A program made the translations under genes and the position numbers. Shown here piece by piece: positions 31,978-42,201 of a DNA stretch of 64,000 bases. Source of the DNA: an uncultured Roseicyclus sp. (lineage in GTDB: Bacteria; Pseudomonadota; Alphaproteobacteria; Rhodobacterales; Rhodobacteraceae); assembly GCA_947491935.1 (NCBI GenBank), contig CANLLF010000002.1, positions 1,054,001 to 1,118,000 on the forward strand, given 5' to 3'. Under the pieces are notes generated by a model. It had not been told where the DNA came from. It was given only the letters and a program-made list of their open reading frames with translations, and did not search any database. Position 1 is the first letter of the stretch, and every line of letters begins with the position of its first letter.

Positions 31978-33705
31978 ATGGAGCCTGCCCCCGTGTTGCC
32001 CCCGTTTCGTATCTTTTCCCCAACTCCCCTGCTGGCCGCTGCAGCATTCGCTCTGAGCGGCCCGTCTTTTGCGCAAGGCATCGATGTGCCGGAACAGGCC
32101 GTCGTGGAGTCGCAGCTTGCGCAGTTGGGCGCGAATGTGCCCGGATCGATTTTTGCGATGCAGCCGTTCCGCAATGACCAGAGCCTTCAGGCCGTGGATG
32201 GCACCACCTATACGCTGACCTCGCTGAACCCCCATGTGAATTCCTGGTTCATTCTGGAGATCACGCCCGCAAATGGCCGTTCACGTTTTGCGCATTTCGA
32301 GAATGCGGCCCCTGAGATCTGGGATATTTCCCTGATCGACGAAGACGGCCCCGCGCTTCTGATCGAGGGCGATGGCGATAGTTTTGCCTGTGCGCCGTGG
32401 GATGATGGCGAATTGGCCGAGGCCCAAGACAGTTCCCTGCCATTCGCGCCGGTCTGCGATTGGAGCATCTTCGTGCGCAACCCCGTCAGCGGCAATCGCA
32501 CGACGCGGGAGGCCGTGGCCGAATTCCTGCGTGACAACGTGGTCTTCGGCGAATCCATCGTGAACCTGATCAAGGGTGCGTTCTTTGAAGACGCGTTCAT
32601 GATTTCGTCCGAAGGTGAGGAAGAGGTGGAGGAAATCGACGGTGTCGAACTCCTCGGTAACGCGCTCCTCGACAACACGCCCAACATGCGCCCTTACATG
32701 GGCTTCGAGTTGATCGGCACCGATGCCGGCGCCATGACCGCGGGCGCCTGGTACGAGGTGGAGGACAGCCCCGGCATCTACGCGTCCGTCATGCAGCCCG
32801 GCATGATCGCCAACGAGGTGTTTCAGGTGCCCGGTGCCAACGGCCTCGATGGGATCGAGCGGCGCGCGGATGTCTATCTGGTCGCCTTCGACATGGCCCG
32901 CTTCGACATCGGCTATGAACTTGGCACGGAACATCCGCGGCTTGGCTGGTCCTCACGCCCTTCGAACCGGCACGGGCAGGGGCGGGGGCCCGATGGCTTC
33001 GACCGTCCCGACCCGGTGGTCCGCACCGGCATGCTGAACCCGGCCTTCGCCGAGCGGGTGGCCGCCACCTTTACCGGCGGGTTCAAGCGCGACCACGGCG
33101 CGTGGCGCTTTGGCGACTACTCGACGTTCAACTACGGCCACCATTACGGCTTCATGCAGAACGGTGTATTGATCTCTCGCCTCTGGCCCAATCTCGCGAC
33201 CCTTTACCTGACGCAGGACGGCGATGTCGCCATGCGCACTTGGCGGGAAGAGGACGAAAGGCTGCTGCCGGAGCTGACCTTCGCGCGCCAGAACGGTGTG
33301 GCCATCATCGAAGACGGCGTACCCGGCCCGCGCGTGACGTCCTGGGGCGGTGGCAATTGGTCCGGCGATGCCAACGCGACCCTCCGCACCTTGCGCGGTG
33401 GCACCTGCATGCGGACGGTCGAAGACAGGCAATTCCTGATTTACGCTTACTTTTCAACGGCAACGCCATCTGCGATGGCGCGCACGTTCCAGGCGTATCA
33501 ATGCGACTATGCCATGCTATTGGACATGAACAGCCAGGAGCACACCTATATGGCGCTTTACGTGCACGACGAGGATGGCGGTGAGATGGACGTTCAGCAC
33601 CTCGTCTCGGGCATGGCGGAAGCGGATCCGGATAACGGGCGGGTTCCGCGCTTTATCTCGGCGCCGGATAACCGCGACTTCTTCTATCTTTTGCGGAGGG
33701 AATGA
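31978..33705 (+). CDS. Secreted protein of unknown function, possibly phosphodiester-glycosidase-like
   Basis: This 575-residue protein has an N-terminal signal peptide (LLAAAAFALSGPSFAQ), so it is probably periplasmic. The middle has an acidic stretch EGEEEVEEIDGVELLG. The C-terminal third contains ATFTGGFKRDHGAWRFGDYS and, near residues 498-525, SAMARTFQAYQCDYAMLLDM. That arrangement recalls the phosphodiester glycosidase (NAGPA/DUF2233) domain, but the glycine-rich end of that motif is missing, so this is a suggestion only. The start ATG 31978 has a distant GGAG. It overlaps the next gene by four bases, so the two products are coupled. Confidence 0.72.
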   Translation: MEPAPVLPPFRIFSPTPLLAAAAFALSGPSFAQGIDVPEQAVVESQLAQLGANVPGSIFAMQPFRNDQSLQAVDGTTYTLTSLNPHVNSWFILEITPANGRSRFAHFENAAPEIWDISLIDEDGPALLIEGDGDSFACAPWDDGELAEAQDSSLPFAPVCDWSIFVRNPVSGNRTTREAVAEFLRDNVVFGESIVNLIKGAFFEDAFMISSEGEEEVEEIDGVELLGNALLDNTPNMRPYMGFELIGTDAGAMTAGAWYEVEDSPGIYASVMQPGMIANEVFQVPGANGLDGIERRADVYLVAFDMARFDIGYELGTEHPRLGWSSRPSNRHGQGRGPDGFDRPDPVVRTGMLNPAFAERVAATFTGGFKRDHGAWRFGDYSTFNYGHHYGFMQNGVLISRLWPNLATLYLTQDGDVAMRTWREEDERLLPELTFARQNGVAIIEDGVPGPRVTSWGGGNWSGDANATLRTLRGGTCMRTVEDRQFLIYAYFSTATPSAMARTFQAYQCDYAMLLDMNSQEHTYMALYVHDEDGGEMDVQHLVSGMAEADPDNGRVPRFISAPDNRDFFYLLRRE

Positions 33706-34733
33706 TGGGCTTTGGAGTGACGTTGAGGGCGGCCGTTGCGGCGGCGGCCTTGGTGTGTGGCGGCGGGGCCGCGACGGCCCAATCGCTGGCCGAGCGAAAC
33801 GAACTGCTGTTCCAGCAGTTGCAACAGATCCGGGGGCTGTCGAATTCCGAGATCAACCGCGTGCGCACAATCTTTGCCAATTCGCCCAACGGCTGGATGG
33901 GGCAGGGCAACCCCGCAGTCACCCAGCACCCGCTGACGCCCGAAGAGGCCGCCGCGCGCCTTGGCGGGTCGGTGGAGCAGGTGCGCGCCAGCTACCGCAA
34001 CCGCGAATATGAGCGGATCTGCGGCGGGCCCTTCATGGTGCCGCTGTATGATCCCGCAACCGAAACCGCGCGCGACGCGACGGTCTGCGCGGACATGTTC
34101 GAATACCCCAATATCCCAATGGTTTACCCGGTGGTTTGGGTGCGCGCCAACGAAGCCGCGGCGCTCTGCGCTGCGGAAGGCGGGCGCATCGGGGACGCCC
34201 ATGAATGGGAGGGGGCCGCCGCGGGCCAATTGCTGCCGCCCGATTACCCGTTCGACATGATCCGCGGCATGGGTGCGTCTGCAGCGGTCAACACGATGCG
34301 GAACTGGCACAACAACCATTATTCCAGTACCAGTGGCACCTATTCGATCGGGGCCTGGCAATCCGGAGTCTGTGCCACCGGATCGTTCAAAAACGCCTCG
34401 TGCAATGGCGGCAGCTTCACGGGCTGTGGGTCCAACACATATCCGGCGGGCAGCTTCCCACAATGCCAATCGCCGTTGGGCGTGTTTGATATCGATGGCA
34501 ACGCGGCGGAGCATATGAACCTGCCGCTGGCCGAGGATCAGATGGCCTCCGCGGGATCCACCACCCTTGGCGTGACGGAGATGAAGGGATCGTGGTTCAT
34601 CTGGGATACGATCCGTGCCCACGAGCATTGGGCCCGCTGGCGGGCACCGTTCTGGCACGGCTCCCGCGTGCTGAGCGAAGGCAGCCATCGGAACTATCAC
34701 CTTGGTTTCCGGTGCTTCCGCGACGTGCGATAA
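33702..34733 (+). CDS. Secreted formylglycine-generating-enzyme-like (SUMF1) protein
   Basis: This 343-residue protein has a signal peptide (AAVAAAALVCGGGAATAQ) and a C-terminal sulfatase-modifying-factor-type domain. YPVVWVRANEAAALCAAEGG followed by RIGDAHEWEGAAAG matches the usual YPV.W..A..YC.W.G.RLPTE.EWE segment. SPLGVFDIDGNAAEHM and SHRNYHLGFRC match its C-terminal landmarks. True formylglycine enzymes use a cysteine pair near the end. Here the only late cysteine is in GFRC, so catalysis is doubtful. ATG 33702 overlaps the previous stop; ATG 33705 is better spaced from GGAGG. A strong terminator follows. Confidence 0.75.
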   Translation: MMGFGVTLRAAVAAAALVCGGGAATAQSLAERNELLFQQLQQIRGLSNSEINRVRTIFANSPNGWMGQGNPAVTQHPLTPEEAAARLGGSVEQVRASYRNREYERICGGPFMVPLYDPATETARDATVCADMFEYPNIPMVYPVVWVRANEAAALCAAEGGRIGDAHEWEGAAAGQLLPPDYPFDMIRGMGASAAVNTMRNWHNNHYSSTSGTYSIGAWQSGVCATGSFKNASCNGGSFTGCGSNTYPAGSFPQCQSPLGVFDIDGNAAEHMNLPLAEDQMASAGSTTLGVTEMKGSWFIWDTIRAHEHWARWRAPFWHGSRVLSEGSHRNYHLGFRCFRDVR

Positions 34734-34750
34734 GCGCAATCATCAACAAG

Positions 34751-34783
34751 AAAAGGCGCGCCCCGGTGGCGCGCCTTTTTCTT
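34751..34783. terminator. Bidirectional rho-independent terminator
   Basis: AAAAGGCGCGCC, a CCGGT loop and GGCGCGCCTTTTT form a perfect GC-rich stem. A T run lies on the rightward strand and an A run on the other side. It lies between two convergent genes and serves both. Confidence 0.9.
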
Positions 34784-34810
34784 TCCAGATTAGTCAGTTG
34801 CGGGGTGAGC

Positions 34811-36343
34811 TTAAAGTGACGCGAGTCGCACTGTTGCACCGCTGAGCGCACCGTCTCCGTTCAGGAAGCCCGCATAGCGCTCGTCGGTCAGAAGGTCGCG
34901 CAGGTCGACAGCTTCCCCGTTCACGTAGGCCGTGCGGCTGACCAGCCGGATGCCGTGGCTGTAATCGGCGTAGTAAGCGCCATGGACGGTGGAGAGCGGC
35001 TGGATCGCCGCGCCGTTGGTGCGGTGCCATCCGTAAATCGCGACGCGGCCGGGATTGCGGCTCAGCCGGTTGGTCATGACGAGGTCCTTCTTGTGACCGG
35101 CCACCAACATCCCAGGGCGGGCCCCGGCACGGGCGAATTGGGCGTCGAGCGTCTCGTCATGGCGCACGAAATAATTGGTCGAGGACATGGAGGAGCCGGG
35201 CGTCATCGGCGATGGCGCGATCCGCACATCGGCCTGACGGTAGATCGCATCGACCATCGTGGTGGTCGGCAGCATCATGTCGAACGCATCCGCCACGCGC
35301 AGGGCGGCGGGCAGGCCAAGCGGCACGCGGACATGGTCGCGGTCCGAGCCGATGGCGAGATAATCGGGCGTCACGCAGATCGTGACATCAACGGAGCGTC
35401 CACCAACCGTTCCGTTGAAGGTGACGGGCTGCAGATCACGGATGAAGTCGGGCACGTTTCCGTTGAGCGCCTCTTGCACCAGCCGGTTGTCGCGCGCAGA
35501 GCCCGAGCCGTTGCCGACGGCGGCCATGACGGCGGAACCGCCAGCTGCGCTTCCAGGACGTCGCGGGATGTCACGCGACAGGCGTGCGGAGCAGTCGCCG
35601 TTGCCGCCGCGCCCGCCAAAGAGCGTGCCGCGCGGGCTTTCGCCAACGCCGCCAAGCACTTCGGGCGCTTCGGCGCGGGCCACTTCGATGCTGAGATCCG
35701 CAGCGTCGGCTGCGACGCGCCGGACCAGAGATTGCGGGCGCGCGGTTGGGCGCGGGCTGGCTGCGGCGAGAAGGGCAGAGGTTTGCGGCCCGGTCTCGGG
35801 ATCGGGCCAGGCCGGGGTGGTCGTGCCGGGCCGTGCGGTGGGGCGCGGCAGGGTCAGCGCGCGTGCGGGCGTCATGCCGCGGGCCATGGCCACCACTTCC
35901 AGCTCAGCGGCCGGGCGGCGCACCGGCATCACCGGAGGGCTGCCCAGAACCAGCGTGAACGTGCCTTCATCGCGATCGGGGCCAGATATGGTGGAAGGCG
36001 CGGCGGCGATGTCTGCGGTTTGGGGGGCCAGGGACGGTGCCGCGCGGACGCGCGGCCCGTTATCGACAACGACCGATACCGTGGTATCGAACACCTCCGG
36101 ACGGGGGTAGGACCGCCCGGCCGCCGGTTGCGGCGCAGGATCGGCGGCGGCCAGTTCATCTTGTGCGCCGCGCTGCGCATCCATCACATTGGATGCCACG
36201 ACATAGGTGCAAACCGACGACATCACGGACGAGGCCAGCACCATCCCCAGCACCCCGTTGGGTCGTTCGAAAAAGCCCAGACCCGTCCGGGTCTTACCCA
36301 TGGATAACTGCGCAATACCCTGCGCAAAACTTGTCCCGTTCAT
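34811..36343 (-). CDS. Membrane-anchored protein with a large extracytoplasmic domain, unknown function
   Basis: This roughly 510-residue protein has one N-terminal transmembrane segment (GVLGMVLASSVMSSVCTYVV) and then a long proline/alanine-rich, probably disordered stretch (about 55-250). A compact C-terminal domain (about 290-510) follows, with PDYLAIGSDRDHVRVPLGLP, LVAGHKKDLVMTNRLSRNPG and ISTVHGAYYADYSHGIRLV-like text (STVHGAYYADYSHGIRLV). The conserved histidines and charged residues suggest an enzyme, but I cannot name the family. The start is uncertain: ATG 36343, ATG 36301 and an upstream GTG are in frame. It follows the dprE-like operon on the same strand after 183 bp. Confidence 0.68.
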   Translation of the reverse strand: MNGTSFAQGIAQLSMGKTRTGLGFFERPNGVLGMVLASSVMSSVCTYVVASNVMDAQRGAQDELAAADPAPQPAAGRSYPRPEVFDTTVSVVVDNGPRVRAAPSLAPQTADIAAAPSTISGPDRDEGTFTLVLGSPPVMPVRRPAAELEVVAMARGMTPARALTLPRPTARPGTTTPAWPDPETGPQTSALLAAASPRPTARPQSLVRRVAADAADLSIEVARAEAPEVLGGVGESPRGTLFGGRGGNGDCSARLSRDIPRRPGSAAGGSAVMAAVGNGSGSARDNRLVQEALNGNVPDFIRDLQPVTFNGTVGGRSVDVTICVTPDYLAIGSDRDHVRVPLGLPAALRVADAFDMMLPTTTMVDAIYRQADVRIAPSPMTPGSSMSSTNYFVRHDETLDAQFARAGARPGMLVAGHKKDLVMTNRLSRNPGRVAIYGWHRTNGAAIQPLSTVHGAYYADYSHGIRLVSRTAYVNGEAVDLRDLLTDERYAGFLNGDGALSGATVRLASL

Positions 36344-36432
36344 GAGAACGCACTGCCCCTTTGCGGCCGTCACGCGGTGCCCGCCGCGCTTAGTTGTCCC
36401 TCGTGGTTCATCAGCCCTATTGTGGAAGTGTT

Positions 36433-36526: not shown

Positions 36527-37258
36527 CTACAGCGATGTTTTCTTGAAGATTGGTTCCGGGATATTCCGGATCACCGCCATCACGACCCGCCAGATCGGCC
36601 GGGTATAGATGATGTTTTTCTGTTTTTCGACGGCTTTGAGAATCGCTGCGCCAACCTCTTCGGGGTCGGCGGTAAGCGGCCCGGGCAGGTCCATGCCGTC
36701 CGTCATGGCGGTGCGCACGAAGCCGGGCAGCACTGTCACGACGTGCACGCCCCTCCGTGCCAGCCGGTTGCGCAGGCCCGACAGAAACGCAGTGAACCCG
36801 GCCTTGGCGGAACCATAGACGTAGTTCGAGGCGCGCCCGCGGTCGCCGGCGACCGATGAGATGCCGACCAGCGTGCCGGAGCCGCGGGCCTCCATGGCGT
36901 TGGCCAGATGGGCGAGGATCGAGGCGGGGCCTTCGAAATTGGAACGGATCACCATGGCCGCTCCCAACGGGTCCGCCGCGCTTTGATCCTGATCACCCAT
37001 CGCCCCCACGGCACAGATGGCGATTTGTGGAAGGTCGAGCCCCTCGAAAAAGGCGGCATGGGTGCCGGTGGCCAGCGCATCGAAGGCGTGCAGCGTCACG
37101 TCGACGCCATAGCGGGTGCGCAGATCGGCGGCGTCATCGTCGAGCCGGTTGATATCTCGGGCGGCCAGTTGAATGGGGTGCCCGGCCTCCGCAAAGCTGC
37201 GCGCGACCGCGCGGGCCATGCCCGACGTGGCACCAAGGATGAGGACGGGACCGCTCAT
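36527..37258 (-). CDS. dprE2: DprE2-like SDR (polyprenylphosphoryl 2-keto-pentose reductase)
   Basis: This 243-residue SDR has the cofactor motif PVLILGATSGMARAVARSFA, a serine in VGISSVAGDRGRAS and the catalytic pair Tyr148/Lys152 in NYVYGSAKAGF. The late segment LPGFVRTAMTDGMDLPGPL and a basic, hydrophobic C-terminus (WRVVMAVIRNIPEPIFKK) match mycobacterial DprE2, which reduces the 2-keto intermediate made by DprE1 to a lipid-linked arabinose. Its start overlaps the dprE1-like stop by four bases. The C-terminus probably associates with the membrane, where the substrate lies. Confidence 0.85.
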   Translation of the reverse strand: MSGPVLILGATSGMARAVARSFAEAGHPIQLAARDINRLDDDAADLRTRYGVDVTLHAFDALATGTHAAFFEGLDLPQIAICAVGAMGDQDQSAADPLGAAMVIRSNFEGPASILAHLANAMEARGSGTLVGISSVAGDRGRASNYVYGSAKAGFTAFLSGLRNRLARRGVHVVTVLPGFVRTAMTDGMDLPGPLTADPEEVGAAILKAVEKQKNIIYTRPIWRVVMAVIRNIPEPIFKKTSL

Positions 37259-38556
37259 AAGCCCAACCTTTCGGATTGCAGGGAGGTGAATTTTTCTGTG
37301 AGGCCCGCCTGTTTGCGCATCGCGGCAAAGGCCTTGGCGCGCGGATCGGCCTTGGCCACGGCCTCGGGCATCCGCGCATCCTTGGCGAGGTAGAATCGCC
37401 CGCCATGGGCCAGTGTGATCTGGTCGAGGGTTTGCATCAGGGCAAGGCTCCGTTCATTGGCCGGGAAGTCGAGGGCCAGCGTATAACCGGGCATTGGGAA
37501 GGAAACATGGCCCGATTGCGGCCCGAAGCGTTTTAACACCGACAGGACCGATCCGGTTTGCGCAGCCGCAATCGTGTCCATCAGTTCCTTCAGGCCAGCC
37601 GCGGCCGTTTCTTCGGGCAGAGCACATTGAAATTGCAGGAATCCGTTCCGGCCATACAGCCGGTTCCAGTTGGCCAGCGCGTCGAGTGGATAGAAGTAGC
37701 TGTCCCAATTCACCAGGCTGGTGCCTGCGCGTTTGGCCCCGCGTCGCCAGTAGATGCCGTTCATCGCCCTGAGCCACAGGCCCCGGAAGATGAAGGGCGG
37801 CGCACCGAAGGGAACGGGCAGCTTGCCTTTGCGGCGCACCTCAAGCGGGCGCCAATGCCCCGGCAATTCATCGGCGCGGGCATGCCGCCCCAGAAGCAGC
37901 AGGGAATGGCCGTGATGCGGCCCGTCGGAGCAATCGATCCAGGCGACGGAATAGGGAACGTCTTGCGTCTCCTCGAAGGCGTCCAACGTCTCTTGCACCG
38001 ATGTCAGCGCGCGGGTTTCCTGACTGATCCACGCCGTTTCCACCTGTCGCAACCGGATCTGCGCGCGCAGGATCACGCCGGTCAGCCCCATGCCGCCGAT
38101 GGTCCAATCATAGAGATCATCGGATGGGGTGACCCGTGTAACAGTGCCATCCGGCCCCATCAGGTCGATCCAGTCGACGCAGGAGCGGAACGAGCCATCG
38201 AGGTGGTGGTTCTTGCCGTGCACATCGGCGGCAATGGCCCCGCCGAGGCTGACATATTTGGTGCCCGGCGTGACCCAGGGAAACCAGCCGCGCGGCAGGA
38301 ATGTGTGAATGATGTCGCCCAGTAGCACCCCGGCCTCCGCCACCAGCACGCCGTCGTTGAAGGACAACATCCGGTCCATCCCGGTCATGTCCAACGTCTG
38401 GTCGGTATTCAGCGCCGCGTCGCCATAAGCGCGCCCGTTGCCCCGCGCGATCAGCGGCGCAGCCTCAATCGCGGCGCGCACATCGGCCTCGGACCGGGCC
38501 GTCACAACATTGCACTCCGCCAGAGGGAAGCGGCCCCAACCGCCCAGACGCGTCAT
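37255..38556 (-). CDS. dprE1: DprE1-like FAD-dependent polyprenylphosphoryl-ribose 2-oxidase
   Basis: This 433-residue FAD oxidase of the VAO/ALO type is very like mycobacterial DprE1. The FAD-binding text includes ARGNGRAYGDAALN and LGGAIAADVHGKNHHLDGSF, with the substrate-site His in KNHH. Also present are FYPLDALANWNRLYGRNGFL, LKRFGPQSGHVSFPMPGYTL and the lysine of YLAKDARMPE (Lys392, equivalent to Lys418). The residue aligned with Cys387, the target of benzothiazinones, is Ala361 (TLALDFP). The start ATG 38556 overlaps the gtrA stop by four bases. The frame's extension to 38856 only shadows gtrA. Confidence 0.88.
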   Translation of the reverse strand: MTRLGGWGRFPLAECNVVTARSEADVRAAIEAAPLIARGNGRAYGDAALNTDQTLDMTGMDRMLSFNDGVLVAEAGVLLGDIIHTFLPRGWFPWVTPGTKYVSLGGAIAADVHGKNHHLDGSFRSCVDWIDLMGPDGTVTRVTPSDDLYDWTIGGMGLTGVILRAQIRLRQVETAWISQETRALTSVQETLDAFEETQDVPYSVAWIDCSDGPHHGHSLLLLGRHARADELPGHWRPLEVRRKGKLPVPFGAPPFIFRGLWLRAMNGIYWRRGAKRAGTSLVNWDSYFYPLDALANWNRLYGRNGFLQFQCALPEETAAAGLKELMDTIAAAQTGSVLSVLKRFGPQSGHVSFPMPGYTLALDFPANERSLALMQTLDQITLAHGGRFYLAKDARMPEAVAKADPRAKAFAAMRKQAGLTEKFTSLQSERLGL

Positions 38557-38963
38557 GTGGCGCGCTCCGTGAAGACGAAGCGGCGGTCGAGCTGATACTT
38601 GGTGATATAACCGATGCTCAGGCCGATAACGGCACCAAGCTCCCGCGCGAAATCGGTGTTCCAGATCAGCCAGAAGGCGGTTTCCGTCACCCAGAAGATT
38701 GCCGTCGTGACCACACCCATCAGCGAATAAAGCCCGAATTGCCGCCCCTGCGCCGCCGTGCCCGCCGTCTGATCGTAGAAGATCCATTTCTTGTCGAGGA
38801 CGTATTTCACAACCAGCCCGGCCAGCGTTCCGACGCCAAGCGCAAGAGCGAACCACAGCGCGGTCTCACCGCCCAGAAGAACCACCCGTTGCACCGCAAG
38901 GTTCACCACGACAGCGACAATCGCGAACGCAACATAACGCGTGATCAACGTCGCACGGCTCAC
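38553..38963 (-). CDS. GtrA-family membrane protein
   Basis: This 136-residue protein has four transmembrane helices, for example YVAFAIVAVVVNLAVQRVVL and GAVIGLSIGYITKYQLDRRF. It matches the GtrA family, thought to bind or flip polyprenyl-linked sugars. In mycobacteria a GtrA protein (Rv3789) sits beside dprE1 and dprE2. I chose GTG 38963, which overlaps the UbiA stop by four bases (GTGA). The frame could extend to 38996 but only over the neighbour. Confidence 0.85.
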   Translation of the reverse strand: MSRATLITRYVAFAIVAVVVNLAVQRVVLLGGETALWFALALGVGTLAGLVVKYVLDKKWIFYDQTAGTAAQGRQFGLYSLMGVVTTAIFWVTETAFWLIWNTDFARELGAVIGLSIGYITKYQLDRRFVFTERAT

Positions 38964-40537
38964 AGCACCATCGCTCCGGCCATGAGGATTCCGCAAAACA
39001 CGATGACGAGGCGCGAGGTGGAATTGGTAATCGAATACACCATAGGGTCGTCATGCATCTCACCGCGATCGGCGACAAGCACCATTCGACTGATCCAGAA
39101 GATCAGAAGCGGGCAGATCCCCCACAGAAGCCACGGGGTAGAGAACTTCTCCTGCGTCGTCGGTTCATCCACGTAGAGCGCCAGGACCAGCACCGCGAGA
39201 TAGCCCGAGGTGATCGCCATCTGGCTGATGATCCGGCGATCCGAAGGCAGGTATCCGCGCCGCGACGTCTCGCGCCCGGCGGTTTCCGTATCGGTCAGTT
39301 CGGCCAGGCGCTTCACGGCGGCCAGCGCGTAGAAGATGAACATCGAAAATGCCAGTAACCAGACCGACAGGCCCGAGCCGATGGCCACACCGCCTGCGAT
39401 GATCCTGAGGGTGAAGAGAAACGCCAGAAGGCAGATATCAAGCATCGTGTGCTGCTTGAGCTTCACGGAATAAGCCACTGTCGCAGCGAAATAAAGCACG
39501 ACGACGGCCAAGAGCGCGGGTGAAACCAGCACGGCCAGGATCAGCGCCGCGAACAGCAAGACCGGGATCGCCAGGGTGCCGTGGGCCGTGGACAGGGCAC
39601 CGGATGCGAAGGGCCGATCGCGTTTGCGCGGATGGCTGCGATCATCCCGCAGGTCGAGCAGATCGTTGATCAGGTAACCCGCCGATGCCGCGAGGCTGAG
39701 CGCAAAGAACGCGGCGATGATCGCGGCGAGGGCAAAAATTCCGCTGCCCGGCGCGGCGATCAGGGGAACAAGAACCAGCAGGTTCTTCAGCCATTGCTGC
39801 GGGCGGATGGCGCGAACAAAGGCGCTGATCTCCCCCTCGCGATCGATATGCTCCGCCGGGACGGGGCCTGCGTCGAGCTTGCTTCGAACGTTTGCGGCGG
39901 CCCCCACGCTAATGGCCCGGCTTGCCCCGGCCCAAACCTCAAGATCTGCGGCGCTGGTGCCGATATAGTCGTATCCGCCGCGACCAAATTGTTCATCGAG
40001 CAGTTGAGCTTTGCCGCGCGCATCCAGATGGCGCCCCGTGTCGGAGCCGTAGACCTCATCGAACAAGTCAAGATGGGCCGCCACCGCCTCCGCCACGGGC
40101 TGGTCCGACACCGTCACCAGGGCGGTGCGCCCACCCTCGGCGCGCCAGCGGGCAAGGCGGCCCCGGATGGCTGCATCATAAGGCAATGTCGCTACATCCA
40201 CTTGCGCGTGCTCGGCCAGACGTGCCTGCAGTGCGGCGCGCCCCTGCGACAAAGACCTGATCGCGCGCAGGGTGCCCCAGCCGTTCTGCGCCAGCGCCGA
40301 CCAAAGGCGTTCATGGAGCATGTCGGATTTCAGTAACGTGCCGTTCAGGCCCACGACCAGAACGGGGCGCGAGGCCGGTGCCGGATCGGCGATATCGTCG
40401 GGCGCGTGGGTCAGGGTTCGGGCTCCGTGGAAATGCGTGGCAGAAGGTGCCTCAGCCCAAGGGGTTTTGGCCAGTGCTTTCTGATTTGCCCCCGCCGGAT
40501 CGCTATCGACAGGTCCGGACTTGCTGGCTATCGTCAT
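38960..40537 (-). CDS. UbiA-family prenyltransferase fused to a degenerate HAD domain (phosphoribosyl-polyprenol synthase-like)
   Basis: This 525-residue protein has an N-terminal HAD-like domain (about 55-235) and a C-terminal polytopic UbiA domain (about 236-525). The UbiA part has IRPQQWLKNLLVLVPLIAAP, the metal/diphosphate motif NDLLDLRDDRSHPRKRDRP (Asn291-) and KLKQHTMLDICLLAFLFTLR. These resemble Rv3806c, which joins phosphoribosyl diphosphate to decaprenyl phosphate. In the HAD part the DxD nucleophile motif reads GLNGTLLKSD (Gly63, Asn65) and the GDxxxD motif reads GTSAAD, so phosphatase activity is probably lost. It heads the gtrA-dprE1-dprE2 operon; its start is only 32 bp from the divergent SEL1 gene. 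Confidence 0.85.
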   Translation of the reverse strand: MTIASKSGPVDSDPAGANQKALAKTPWAEAPSATHFHGARTLTHAPDDIADPAPASRPVLVVGLNGTLLKSDMLHERLWSALAQNGWGTLRAIRSLSQGRAALQARLAEHAQVDVATLPYDAAIRGRLARWRAEGGRTALVTVSDQPVAEAVAAHLDLFDEVYGSDTGRHLDARGKAQLLDEQFGRGGYDYIGTSAADLEVWAGASRAISVGAAANVRSKLDAGPVPAEHIDREGEISAFVRAIRPQQWLKNLLVLVPLIAAPGSGIFALAAIIAAFFALSLAASAGYLINDLLDLRDDRSHPRKRDRPFASGALSTAHGTLAIPVLLFAALILAVLVSPALLAVVVLYFAATVAYSVKLKQHTMLDICLLAFLFTLRIIAGGVAIGSGLSVWLLAFSMFIFYALAAVKRLAELTDTETAGRETSRRGYLPSDRRIISQMAITSGYLAVLVLALYVDEPTTQEKFSTPWLLWGICPLLIFWISRMVLVADRGEMHDDPMVYSITNSTSRLVIVFCGILMAGAMVL

Positions 40538-40569
40538 AGCGGTTGTTTTTGCTTGAGGATTTCCGCGAT

Positions 40570-42201
40570 ATGCCGCTGCCCATTGCCCTCCGTCCGTTCT
40601 GTGTAATCTCGGTTCTGGCGCTTTGCGCAAGTGGGGCCATTGCACAATCCGATGACGGTGCGGCCGAGCGGGCCGCCGCTGCGGAAGACGCGATTGCCGC
40701 GCTTCAGGCCCTGTCCAGTCCAGCAGAGACCGAAGAGGATGTGGCCGCGGAACGTAGTGCCGCTGTGCAGGAGGCGCGCGCGGCGTTTGAGGCGCTTGCA
40801 GAGGCGTCGCTGGCCGAGGCCATTGCGGCGGCGGAGTCGGGGCCGTCCGAGGAAGAGTTGGCCGCCAGCCGAGCGGCGGCTGTTGAGGACGCCCGCGCGG
40901 CCTTTGCGGCTTTGACAGCGGAAGCCACCGCTAGCGCCGAGGAAGAGGCCGCCGCGGCCCGCACGGCTGCTGTCGATGATGCCCGCGCCGCGTTCGAGGC
41001 ATTGGCTGCCGAGGCTGCTGTTCGTGCGGAGGAAGAAGCCGCCGCCGCCCGCACCGCCGCGGTTGATGATGCCCGTGCAGCGTTCGAGGCATTGGCTGCC
41101 GAAGCCGCCGCCCGTGCCGAGGAAGAGGCCGCCGCCGCCCGCGCCGCAGCCGTTGCCGAGGCGCAATCCGCGTTTGCGGCGGTTGCCGCCGAGGCAGAGG
41201 CCCGCGCGGCAGCGCAGGCGACTCTTGCGCAATGTATTGATCTGGCGGGAGAACCCTCCGCCGAAAACTACCCGACAGAGGAGGCGCAGCGTGCGGCTTT
41301 GTCGGCGCTCCGCGATGCCTTGCCGGCCTGTCGCGCGGCGGCAGAGGCCTTGCCCGAGGAGGGCGCGCCGTTCTTTCATCTGGCTACCGCAGCCCAAGCC
41401 GCCGGGCGGCACCGCCGGGCGGTTCCGCTTTACGAGCAGGCCGCCGAAAACGGCGTCGCAGCGGCCCTGACGCGCTTGGGCGATTATCACAATTTCGGCC
41501 TGCGCCCGGTGCGGGAAGATGTGGAGGAAGCGGCGCGCCTCTACCGTGAGGCGGCCGAGGCAGGCGATCCCGCGGGCATGGCCACGCTGGGGTTCATGTA
41601 CCGCCTTGGGCGCGGGGTGCCGCGTGATGCGGGCGAAATGGTGCGCCTGATGACCATGGCCGCCGATGCAGGCTATCCGTTTGCGCAATTCAATCTCGGG
41701 CGCACCTTGCTGAATGGCGATGGAATAACTGGCGGCTCCGACGAGGCGCTTGGCATTCCCGATCCCCGCGGCGCCGTGCCTTATCTCGTCGCCGCCGCGA
41801 ATTCGGGAAATATGGAGGCTGTTCAGGATCTTATCGGCCTTTATTCAGACGGAGCCGAGGGTGTGCCCGCCAGCGATTTCCTGCGCGGGGGGTGGGTTGA
41901 ACTGCTTGCCGAAGATGGTAATCCCGAGGGTATCGCGGCGCGTGCGTTCCTCTATGAACAGGGGATCGGTCGCGGGCGAAACCCGGAGCGCGCCGCTGCG
42001 GATTACGTTGCCGCGCTTGAAACCGGCGAGGTCGATGTGGAGACGATGCGGGGCACGATCAATGGGCAGACACCGCCCTGGGATCCCGAAACGGCTATCG
42101 CATTCCAGGAGATCCTTGCCGAACGTGGCCTCTACACCGCCGCGATTGACGGCGACATCGGGCCGCGGACCCGCGCCGCCGCCCGGGCCTTGGCCGAATG
42201 A
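40570..42201 (+). CDS. Secreted SEL1-repeat protein with alanine-rich tandem repeats
   Basis: This 543-residue protein has a signal peptide (RPFCVISVLALCASGAIAQ) followed by an Ala/Glu-rich helical region (about 25-225). That region contains three near-identical 30-residue repeats and is likely a coiled coil. The centre holds SEL1-type repeats such as GDPAGMATLGFMYRLGRGVP and GYPFAQFNLGRTLLNGDG. The last 40 residues (AIAFQEILAERGLYTAAIDG) look like a peptidoglycan-binding-like domain. It probably works in the periplasm as an adaptor near the cell wall. ATG 40570 is preferred to the upstream TTG at 40543. Confidence 0.8.
   Translation: MPLPIALRPFCVISVLALCASGAIAQSDDGAAERAAAAEDAIAALQALSSPAETEEDVAAERSAAVQEARAAFEALAEASLAEAIAAAESGPSEEELAASRAAAVEDARAAFAALTAEATASAEEEAAAARTAAVDDARAAFEALAAEAAVRAEEEAAAARTAAVDDARAAFEALAAEAAARAEEEAAAARAAAVAEAQSAFAAVAAEAEARAAAQATLAQCIDLAGEPSAENYPTEEAQRAALSALRDALPACRAAAEALPEEGAPFFHLATAAQAAGRHRRAVPLYEQAAENGVAAALTRLGDYHNFGLRPVREDVEEAARLYREAAEAGDPAGMATLGFMYRLGRGVPRDAGEMVRLMTMAADAGYPFAQFNLGRTLLNGDGITGGSDEALGIPDPRGAVPYLVAAANSGNMEAVQDLIGLYSDGAEGVPASDFLRGGWVELLAEDGNPEGIAARAFLYEQGIGRGRNPERAAADYVAALETGEVDVETMRGTINGQTPPWDPETAIAFQEILAERGLYTAAIDGDIGPRTRAAARALAE
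40936..41205 (+). repeat. Three 90-bp tandem repeats inside the SEL1 gene
   Basis: Units at 40936-41025, 41026-41115 and 41116-41205 each encode 30 residues starting A-E-E-E-A-A-A-A-R. The first two are nearly identical in protein and close in DNA; the third has drifted. A degenerate earlier unit lies upstream. Copy number could vary between strains. Confidence 0.88.

Follow-up and report, generated by a model that had tools for sequence, protein, structure and literature searches.

In the O-antigen system of Citrobacter, the fused protein ORF15 carries out two reactions: its UbiA half makes polyprenyl-phosphoryl ribose-5-phosphate from phosphoribosyl pyrophosphate (PRPP), and its HAD half removes the phosphate (Kelly 2024, PMC11127046). 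The available part of that paper reports that an ORF15 D18A variant made mainly the 5-phosphorylated lipid, with a small amount of dephosphorylated product remaining in vitro and ribose side chains still detected in vivo, and that DprE1 and DprE2 homologues are present in candidate systems for arabinofuranose (Araf)-containing glycans. In Rhizobium, deletion of noeN, a proposed phosphatase gene, reduced Nod-factor arabinosylation and did not abolish it, according to the part of PMC5080398 used here. We analyzed an operon of this kind in a 64,000-nucleotide stretch (C2:1054001-1118000, hereafter the window) of the 4.65-Mb genome of an uncultured Roseicyclus sp., in which the phosphatase half of the fused protein has lost its catalytic residues and the transferase motif is intact.

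The operon runs on the minus strand from position 40537 down to 36527, with the UbiA-family gene, GtrA, DprE1 and DprE2 in that order. A first-pass annotation made from the sequence alone had described four leftward genes at 36527-40537 joined by 4-bp overlaps, and coordinates and junctions bore this out, the three overlaps being GTGA at 38960-38963 and ATGA at 38553-38556 and 37255-37258. The four genes, and the phosphoribose-phosphatase (PRP) and polyprenyl-phosphate phosphoribosyltransferase (PPPRS) domains of the first, are as follows.

38960..40537, minus strand: fused PRP-PPPRS protein, 525 aa, with an N-terminal HAD phosphoribose-phosphatase and a UbiA polyprenyl-phosphate phosphoribosyltransferase (PRK08238, PDB 8j8j, ORF15 architecture)
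39842..40375, minus strand: PRP (HAD) domain, residues 55-232, catalytically degenerate (PF12710, E 4e-9; model confidence; HAD fold match)
40337..40351, minus strand: degenerate HAD motif I, G63-L64-N65-G66-T67, where most relatives have D-L-D-G-T (same in a 96%-identical sister, L035/L046)
39956..39958, minus strand: Thr194 at the motif IV position, which most relatives fill with Asp or Asn (alignment with relatives)
38963..39832, minus strand: PPPRS (UbiA) domain, residues 236-525 (profile, PDB and fold matches)
39641..39667, minus strand: PPPRS active-site motif N291 D292 xx D295 xxx D299 (present in 80/80 intact relatives)
38553..38963, minus strand: GtrA-family membrane protein, putative lipid-pentose flippase, 136 aa, GTG start (NF037976, 164 bits, cut-off 50; PF04138, E 9e-10)
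37255..38556, minus strand: DprE1 homologue, predicted polyprenylphosphoryl-ribose 2'-oxidase, 433 aa (PDB DprE1, E 2e-66)
36527..37258, minus strand: DprE2 homologue, predicted 2'-keto reductase of the short-chain dehydrogenase/reductase type, 243 aa (NF053786, 207 bits; PRK07102, 345 bits; PF00106, E 8e-26)

The same annotation had stated that no phosphoribosyl-decaprenyl phosphatase was visible. This statement did not hold: as the window protein has the PRP-PPPRS architecture of ORF15, the "missing" phosphatase is the HAD domain fused to the N-terminus of the transferase, with its catalytic residues lost. Three catalytic positions are changed (D63G, D65N and D194T), so that the loop I catalytic Asp needed for a functional PRP is absent, and the PF12710 match begins only at profile position 35, beyond motif I. 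Among 80 intact proteins, 20 HAD columns show at least 90% conservation. The window departs from four of them (D63G, D65N, K104Q and N170H), and all four are invariant in those 80; as the presence of both motif I Asp residues defined the intact class, only K104 and N170 count as independent evidence. None of 11 near relatives changes any such column. From this residue pattern, the fused phosphatase half is very probably catalytically dead.

The same motif I and motif IV residues are found in the sister (L035 and L046, treated as one; genome G029), an uncultured Roseicyclus from a separate assembly whose UbiA protein is 96% identical, so the changes predate the split between both lineages and a sequencing error in motif I is unlikely. 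A search of the window's genome with an intact PRP domain found this copy only. The sister genome contains a second, intact PRP on contig C6, beside glycosyltransferase genes. This copy (L047) and another on contig C1 of genome G166 (L050) are each an additional PRP-PPPRS gene of their genome; their motifs are intact, and neither dprE1 nor dprE2 was recognised nearby. Both lie on small contigs, near a multi-transmembrane protein (541 and 537 aa, respectively) and a polysaccharide-export-type gene.

The UbiA half keeps its motif. The catalytic N-D-xx-D-xxx-D and RxxE residues are all present (N291, D292, D295, D299, R410 and E413), the first four corresponding to N247, D248, D251 and D255 of Citrobacter ORF15 (PMC11127046, available part). 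In the UbiA half, 46 columns reach the 90% level of conservation among the intact proteins; the window changes none of them, and 2 of the 11 near relatives change one each. The full protein matches the NCBIfam family PRK08238 over residues 55-524 at 564 bits (cut-off 351), a full-length family match, and the next-best family, decaprenyl-phosphate phosphoribosyltransferase, misses its cut-off of 207 with a score of 160 bits. Among known structures, the mycobacterial phosphoribosyltransferase 8j8j was matched by sequence (E 3e-31) and, in the structural check that the first-pass annotation had proposed, was also the best fold for an AlphaFold2 model built from a 9-sequence alignment (rank 1, E 6e-11), with phosphoserine-phosphatase-type HADs ranking below the first UbiA structures. 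Both the HAD and UbiA parts are modeled confidently (mean predicted local distance difference test score 82.6; block means of 79-95 across residues 61-230), and residues 1-55 score below 50.

Despite the loss of its canonical catalytic residues, the HAD domain is still under purifying selection. Between window and sister, the ratio of nonsynonymous to synonymous divergence (dN/dS) is 0.245 for the HAD domain, 0.057 for UbiA, 0.11 for DprE1, 0.10 for DprE2 and 0.18 for GtrA. The HAD value falls inside the 0.106-0.405 spanned by ten intact pairs, a range that is rough because most of their dS values are near or above 1, which tempers the comparison. Relaxed selection on the domain was considered and showed no clear acceleration, with a dN to the near relative G009 of 0.348 for the window against 0.285-0.357 for five intact relatives.

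To place this loss among relatives, 152 open frames from fetched loci were collapsed into 100 distinct PPPRS-type UbiA proteins, window and sister counting as one. This set is not a random sample, because loci lacking a PRP were deliberately sought. With intact meaning that both catalytic Asp residues are present, and after hand reassignment of rows, the PRP is intact in 80, degenerate in 12 (window included), missing in 7 and encoded as a separate gene in 1. Thus 20 of the 100 proteins lack an intact fused PRP, and among these 19 keep all four UbiA N/D/D/D residues (L153 being the exception), all 20 keep R410 and 17 keep E413. In a careful tree of 93 rows, from which 7 (2 dead, 2 absent and 3 intact) were dropped, the state switches between intact and non-intact 12 times, at least 10 of them forced by starred branches: 7 changes involve dead domains alone, 4 absent domains alone, and the split gene makes the twelfth. 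A quick tree of all 100 rows, with long branches, gave 14 changes, again with at least 10 forced. PRP function has been lost repeatedly, apparently about eleven times independently in the fetched sample, a reading of the trees that takes the regain of an active site as unlikely; the trees themselves cannot separate loss from gain. Four PRP-dead proteins (L100, L147, L153 and L163) have a parallel motif, [LV]-E-x-A-L, in place of D-L-D-G-T-L.

The operon type itself is common, and the rarity in an alphaproteobacterium that the first-pass annotation had implied was not upheld. The PRP-PPPRS fusion is found above cut-off in 75 of 195 genomes sampled within the order and in 28 of 385 sampled within the class, and 84 plasmid records match at E 1e-20. 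Among the 78 loci that span 9 kb or more, 33 contain all four genes in any order. A rare or recently mycobacterium-derived operon is thus unsupported, although no rooted tree including actinobacterial sequences was built. No DprE1 match was found in phage records. Among these 33 four-gene loci a dead PRP occurs in the window lineage alone, and 8 more PRP-dead or PRP-absent loci carry dprE1 and dprE2 homologues. At L061, L062 and L063, dprE1-dprE2 face the PRP-PPPRS gene, no GtrA was recognised, and a multi-transmembrane protein adjoins dprE1 (with an LPG_synthase_TM match in L063).

The proposed identities of the four proteins were upheld by family and PDB searches, and the transferase occurs together with DprE1 and DprE2 homologues, as in the decaprenyl-phosphoryl-arabinose (DPA) pathway. 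The earlier interpretation as a lipid-linked arabinose pathway is well supported, although its kind was already known. PRK07102 matched DprE2 above its own cut-off of 267 bits, and the GtrA scan used a protein with 6 additional upstream residues (P0003). By hand-counted positions in the alignment to the PDB chain, H113, K115, Q308, Q310, K342 and K392 of DprE1 match H132, K134, Q334, Q336, K367 and K418, and Ala361 stands in the place of Cys387; we take these chain positions to be functionally important. The operon is flanked at 31978-36373 and 40543-42201 by uncharacterised genes whose synteny is kept in near relatives. Two of their products, of 575 and 520 aa, match no Pfam family, one resembles FGE-sulfatase proteins, and one is a divergent Sel1-repeat protein.

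For this organism we infer the following scheme, which we regard as likely: the operon would assemble a polyprenyl-phosphoryl pentofuranose at the cytoplasmic face for an extracytoplasmic glycan, with the PRP half acting as a folded pseudo-phosphatase and dephosphorylation being provided by an unlinked enzyme. The UbiA half would join PRPP and polyprenyl phosphate into a phosphoribosyl lipid; its 5'-phosphate, which the fused PRP half is expected to remove in most relatives, would be removed by another, unlinked phosphatase, an assignment made because the PRP half of this lineage appears dead. DprE1 would then oxidise C2 and DprE2 reduce it to give the arabino epimer, GtrA may flip the lipid-linked sugar, and an unlinked GT-C enzyme would transfer it to the acceptor glycan. 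The sugar would most likely be beta-D-arabinofuranose. As the ORF15 D18A and noeN mutants still make some product (PMC11127046 and PMC5080398, available parts), another phosphatase may suffice.

Several observations weigh against this scheme. DprE1 (375 bits) and DprE2 (207 bits) score below their NCBIfam cut-offs of 500 and 250, respectively, and are therefore homologues below equivalog limits. K176 and D198 are retained in the HAD domain, so residual PRP activity is possible. No gene for a replacement phosphatase was identified for the window lineage, and a crude regular-expression scan of the loci (9-22 kb each) around the 20 PRP-lacking genes detected no PAP2 or HAD phosphatase, a scan that is weak because two intact HADs (L042 and L076) went unrecognised by it. 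In agreement with the first-pass annotation, which saw no acceptor transferase, no multi-transmembrane protein of 380-800 aa is present in the 17 kb surrounding the operon (L052; transmembrane segments counted with a simple hydropathy script). The search for arabinofuranosyl transferases elsewhere in the genome that it had proposed gave no match for the GT-C types neighbouring the operon in relatives (L056, A2 and L057), for GT87 or for Arabinose_trans, GT136 being outside this search. The L057 query matched its own genome, and GT87 and Arabinose_trans matched a control genome; the L056 and A2 searches had no positive control, and the A2 query mixed two GT-C types.

In relatives, the operon contains or adjoins genes for multi-transmembrane proteins: after dprE2 in L056 and L057, between GtrA and DprE1 in L068, and after GtrA in L083, where no dprE was recognised. 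A PDB search with the L056 GT-C protein, which had been considered AftB-like, found nothing meaningful. Two PMT_2 proteins, which by eye we presume to be ArnT-like, are encoded elsewhere in the window's genome, unlinked to the operon, and a connection to it could not be made. At L107:5069-8512 (contig C1 of the same genome, G000) a likely family-2 glycosyltransferase gene, assigned by eye, a PMT_2 protein and a PAP2-motif phosphatase stand in a row, a candidate place for both the transfer of the lipid-linked sugar and the phosphatase in trans. At L054 and L057, the latter also with GtrA, DprE1 and DprE2, the PRP-PPPRS gene has an opgG-type (MdoG) gene and a gene for a family-2 glycosyltransferase in its vicinity, and a periplasmic glucan is a possible acceptor there.

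Residual activity provides another explanation: K176, D198 and displaced residues might confer weak phosphatase activity on the PRP half, enough for a low-flux pathway. The ongoing purifying selection fits this, as does the little dephosphorylated product given by the D18A protein in vitro (PMC11127046, available part). However, the window protein has lost both motif I Asp residues, one of them the nucleophile, as well as the motif IV position and two more residues invariant in 80 intact proteins, and we find weak activity unlikely. Much less probable still is that the phosphate is kept on purpose, with DprE1 and DprE2 acting on the 5-phosphorylated lipid and a charged pentofuranose-5-phosphate being attached to the glycan. 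Loss of PRP with an intact UbiA motif, the 8 further dead or absent loci with dprE1 and dprE2 homologues, and the lack of a neighbouring phosphatase recognised by the crude scan would be expected in that case; but the literature examined holds no precedent, the described pathways dephosphorylate before epimerisation (PMC11127046, available part), and pentosylated glycan was still produced by strains that lacked the proposed phosphatase (PMC11127046, PMC5080398).

Decay of the whole operon, which would then make nothing in the window lineage, could account for the catalytic loss in one domain and for the absence of a linked acceptor transferase. It is the least credible of these alternatives, as the four frames are open, the overlaps intact, the DprE1 residues retained and the dN/dS values to the sister 0.06 (UbiA), 0.11 (DprE1), 0.10 (DprE2) and 0.18 (GtrA). 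A bolder proposal, which we put forward as doubtful, is that the PRP half, as a true pseudo-phosphatase, has taken on another function, for example regulating the phosphoribosyltransferase or serving it as lid or scaffold, or that the 5-phosphate is deliberately kept to give a phospho-arabinofuranose surface; if so, repeated PRP loss with an intact transferase would reflect a functional switch that recurs, as opposed to decay.

The kind of pathway is widespread and published (Azorhizobium noe operon, Citrobacter O-antigen system); the novelty lies in a PRP half inactivated in nature and in the recurrence of such losses. Among the matches listed in the open-access literature, none described this operon in Rhodobacteraceae or a natural PRP-dead PPPRS. 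Natural PRP-less and PRP-dead enzymes generalise the odd mutant results of Citrobacter D18A and Rhizobium noeN, and raise the questions of which enzyme removes the phosphate to finish the lipid-linked pentose and for what reason the dedicated phosphatase is lost so often. Mycobacteria use an unrelated enzyme for the same step (PMC11127046, available part).

We compared the window operon with the described systems, which are known to us from parts of the two papers cited. It resembles the three-component pentofuranose system of Citrobacter youngae O1, where ORF15 likewise joins a HAD PRP at its N-terminus to a UbiA PPPRS and leads from PRPP to polyprenyl-phosphoryl ribofuranose, but differs in a PRP without catalytic residues, in a GtrA protein instead of the MATE flippase, in the presence of DprE1 and DprE2 in the operon (PMC11127046) and in having no linked GT-C acceptor transferase in the 17 kb examined. 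With the mycobacterial DPA pathway (Rv3806c, Rv3807c, DprE1, DprE2 and Rv3789) it has in common the transferase, the oxidase and the reductase, all homologous, as well as a small membrane protein as candidate flippase; mycobacteria have a stand-alone phosphatase with no relation to HAD PRPs (PMC11127046), whereas that of the window is fused, and the Emb-type transferase family was not found in the window's genome. The PPPRS that serves pilin arabinosylation in Pseudomonas belongs to the same transferase family; P. aeruginosa has no fused PRP, and in a P. syringae candidate the PRP is C-terminal, in contrast to the N-terminal position in the window (PMC11127046). The link to the noe genes of Azorhizobium made by the first-pass annotation was sustained: noeCHOP, and noeCNHOP of Rhizobium IRBG74, are likewise alphaproteobacterial operons tied to lipid-linked Araf with a phosphatase candidate, NoeN, that is partly dispensable, but unlike the window operon they include a proposed arabinosyltransferase for Nod factors, NoeP (PMC5080398).

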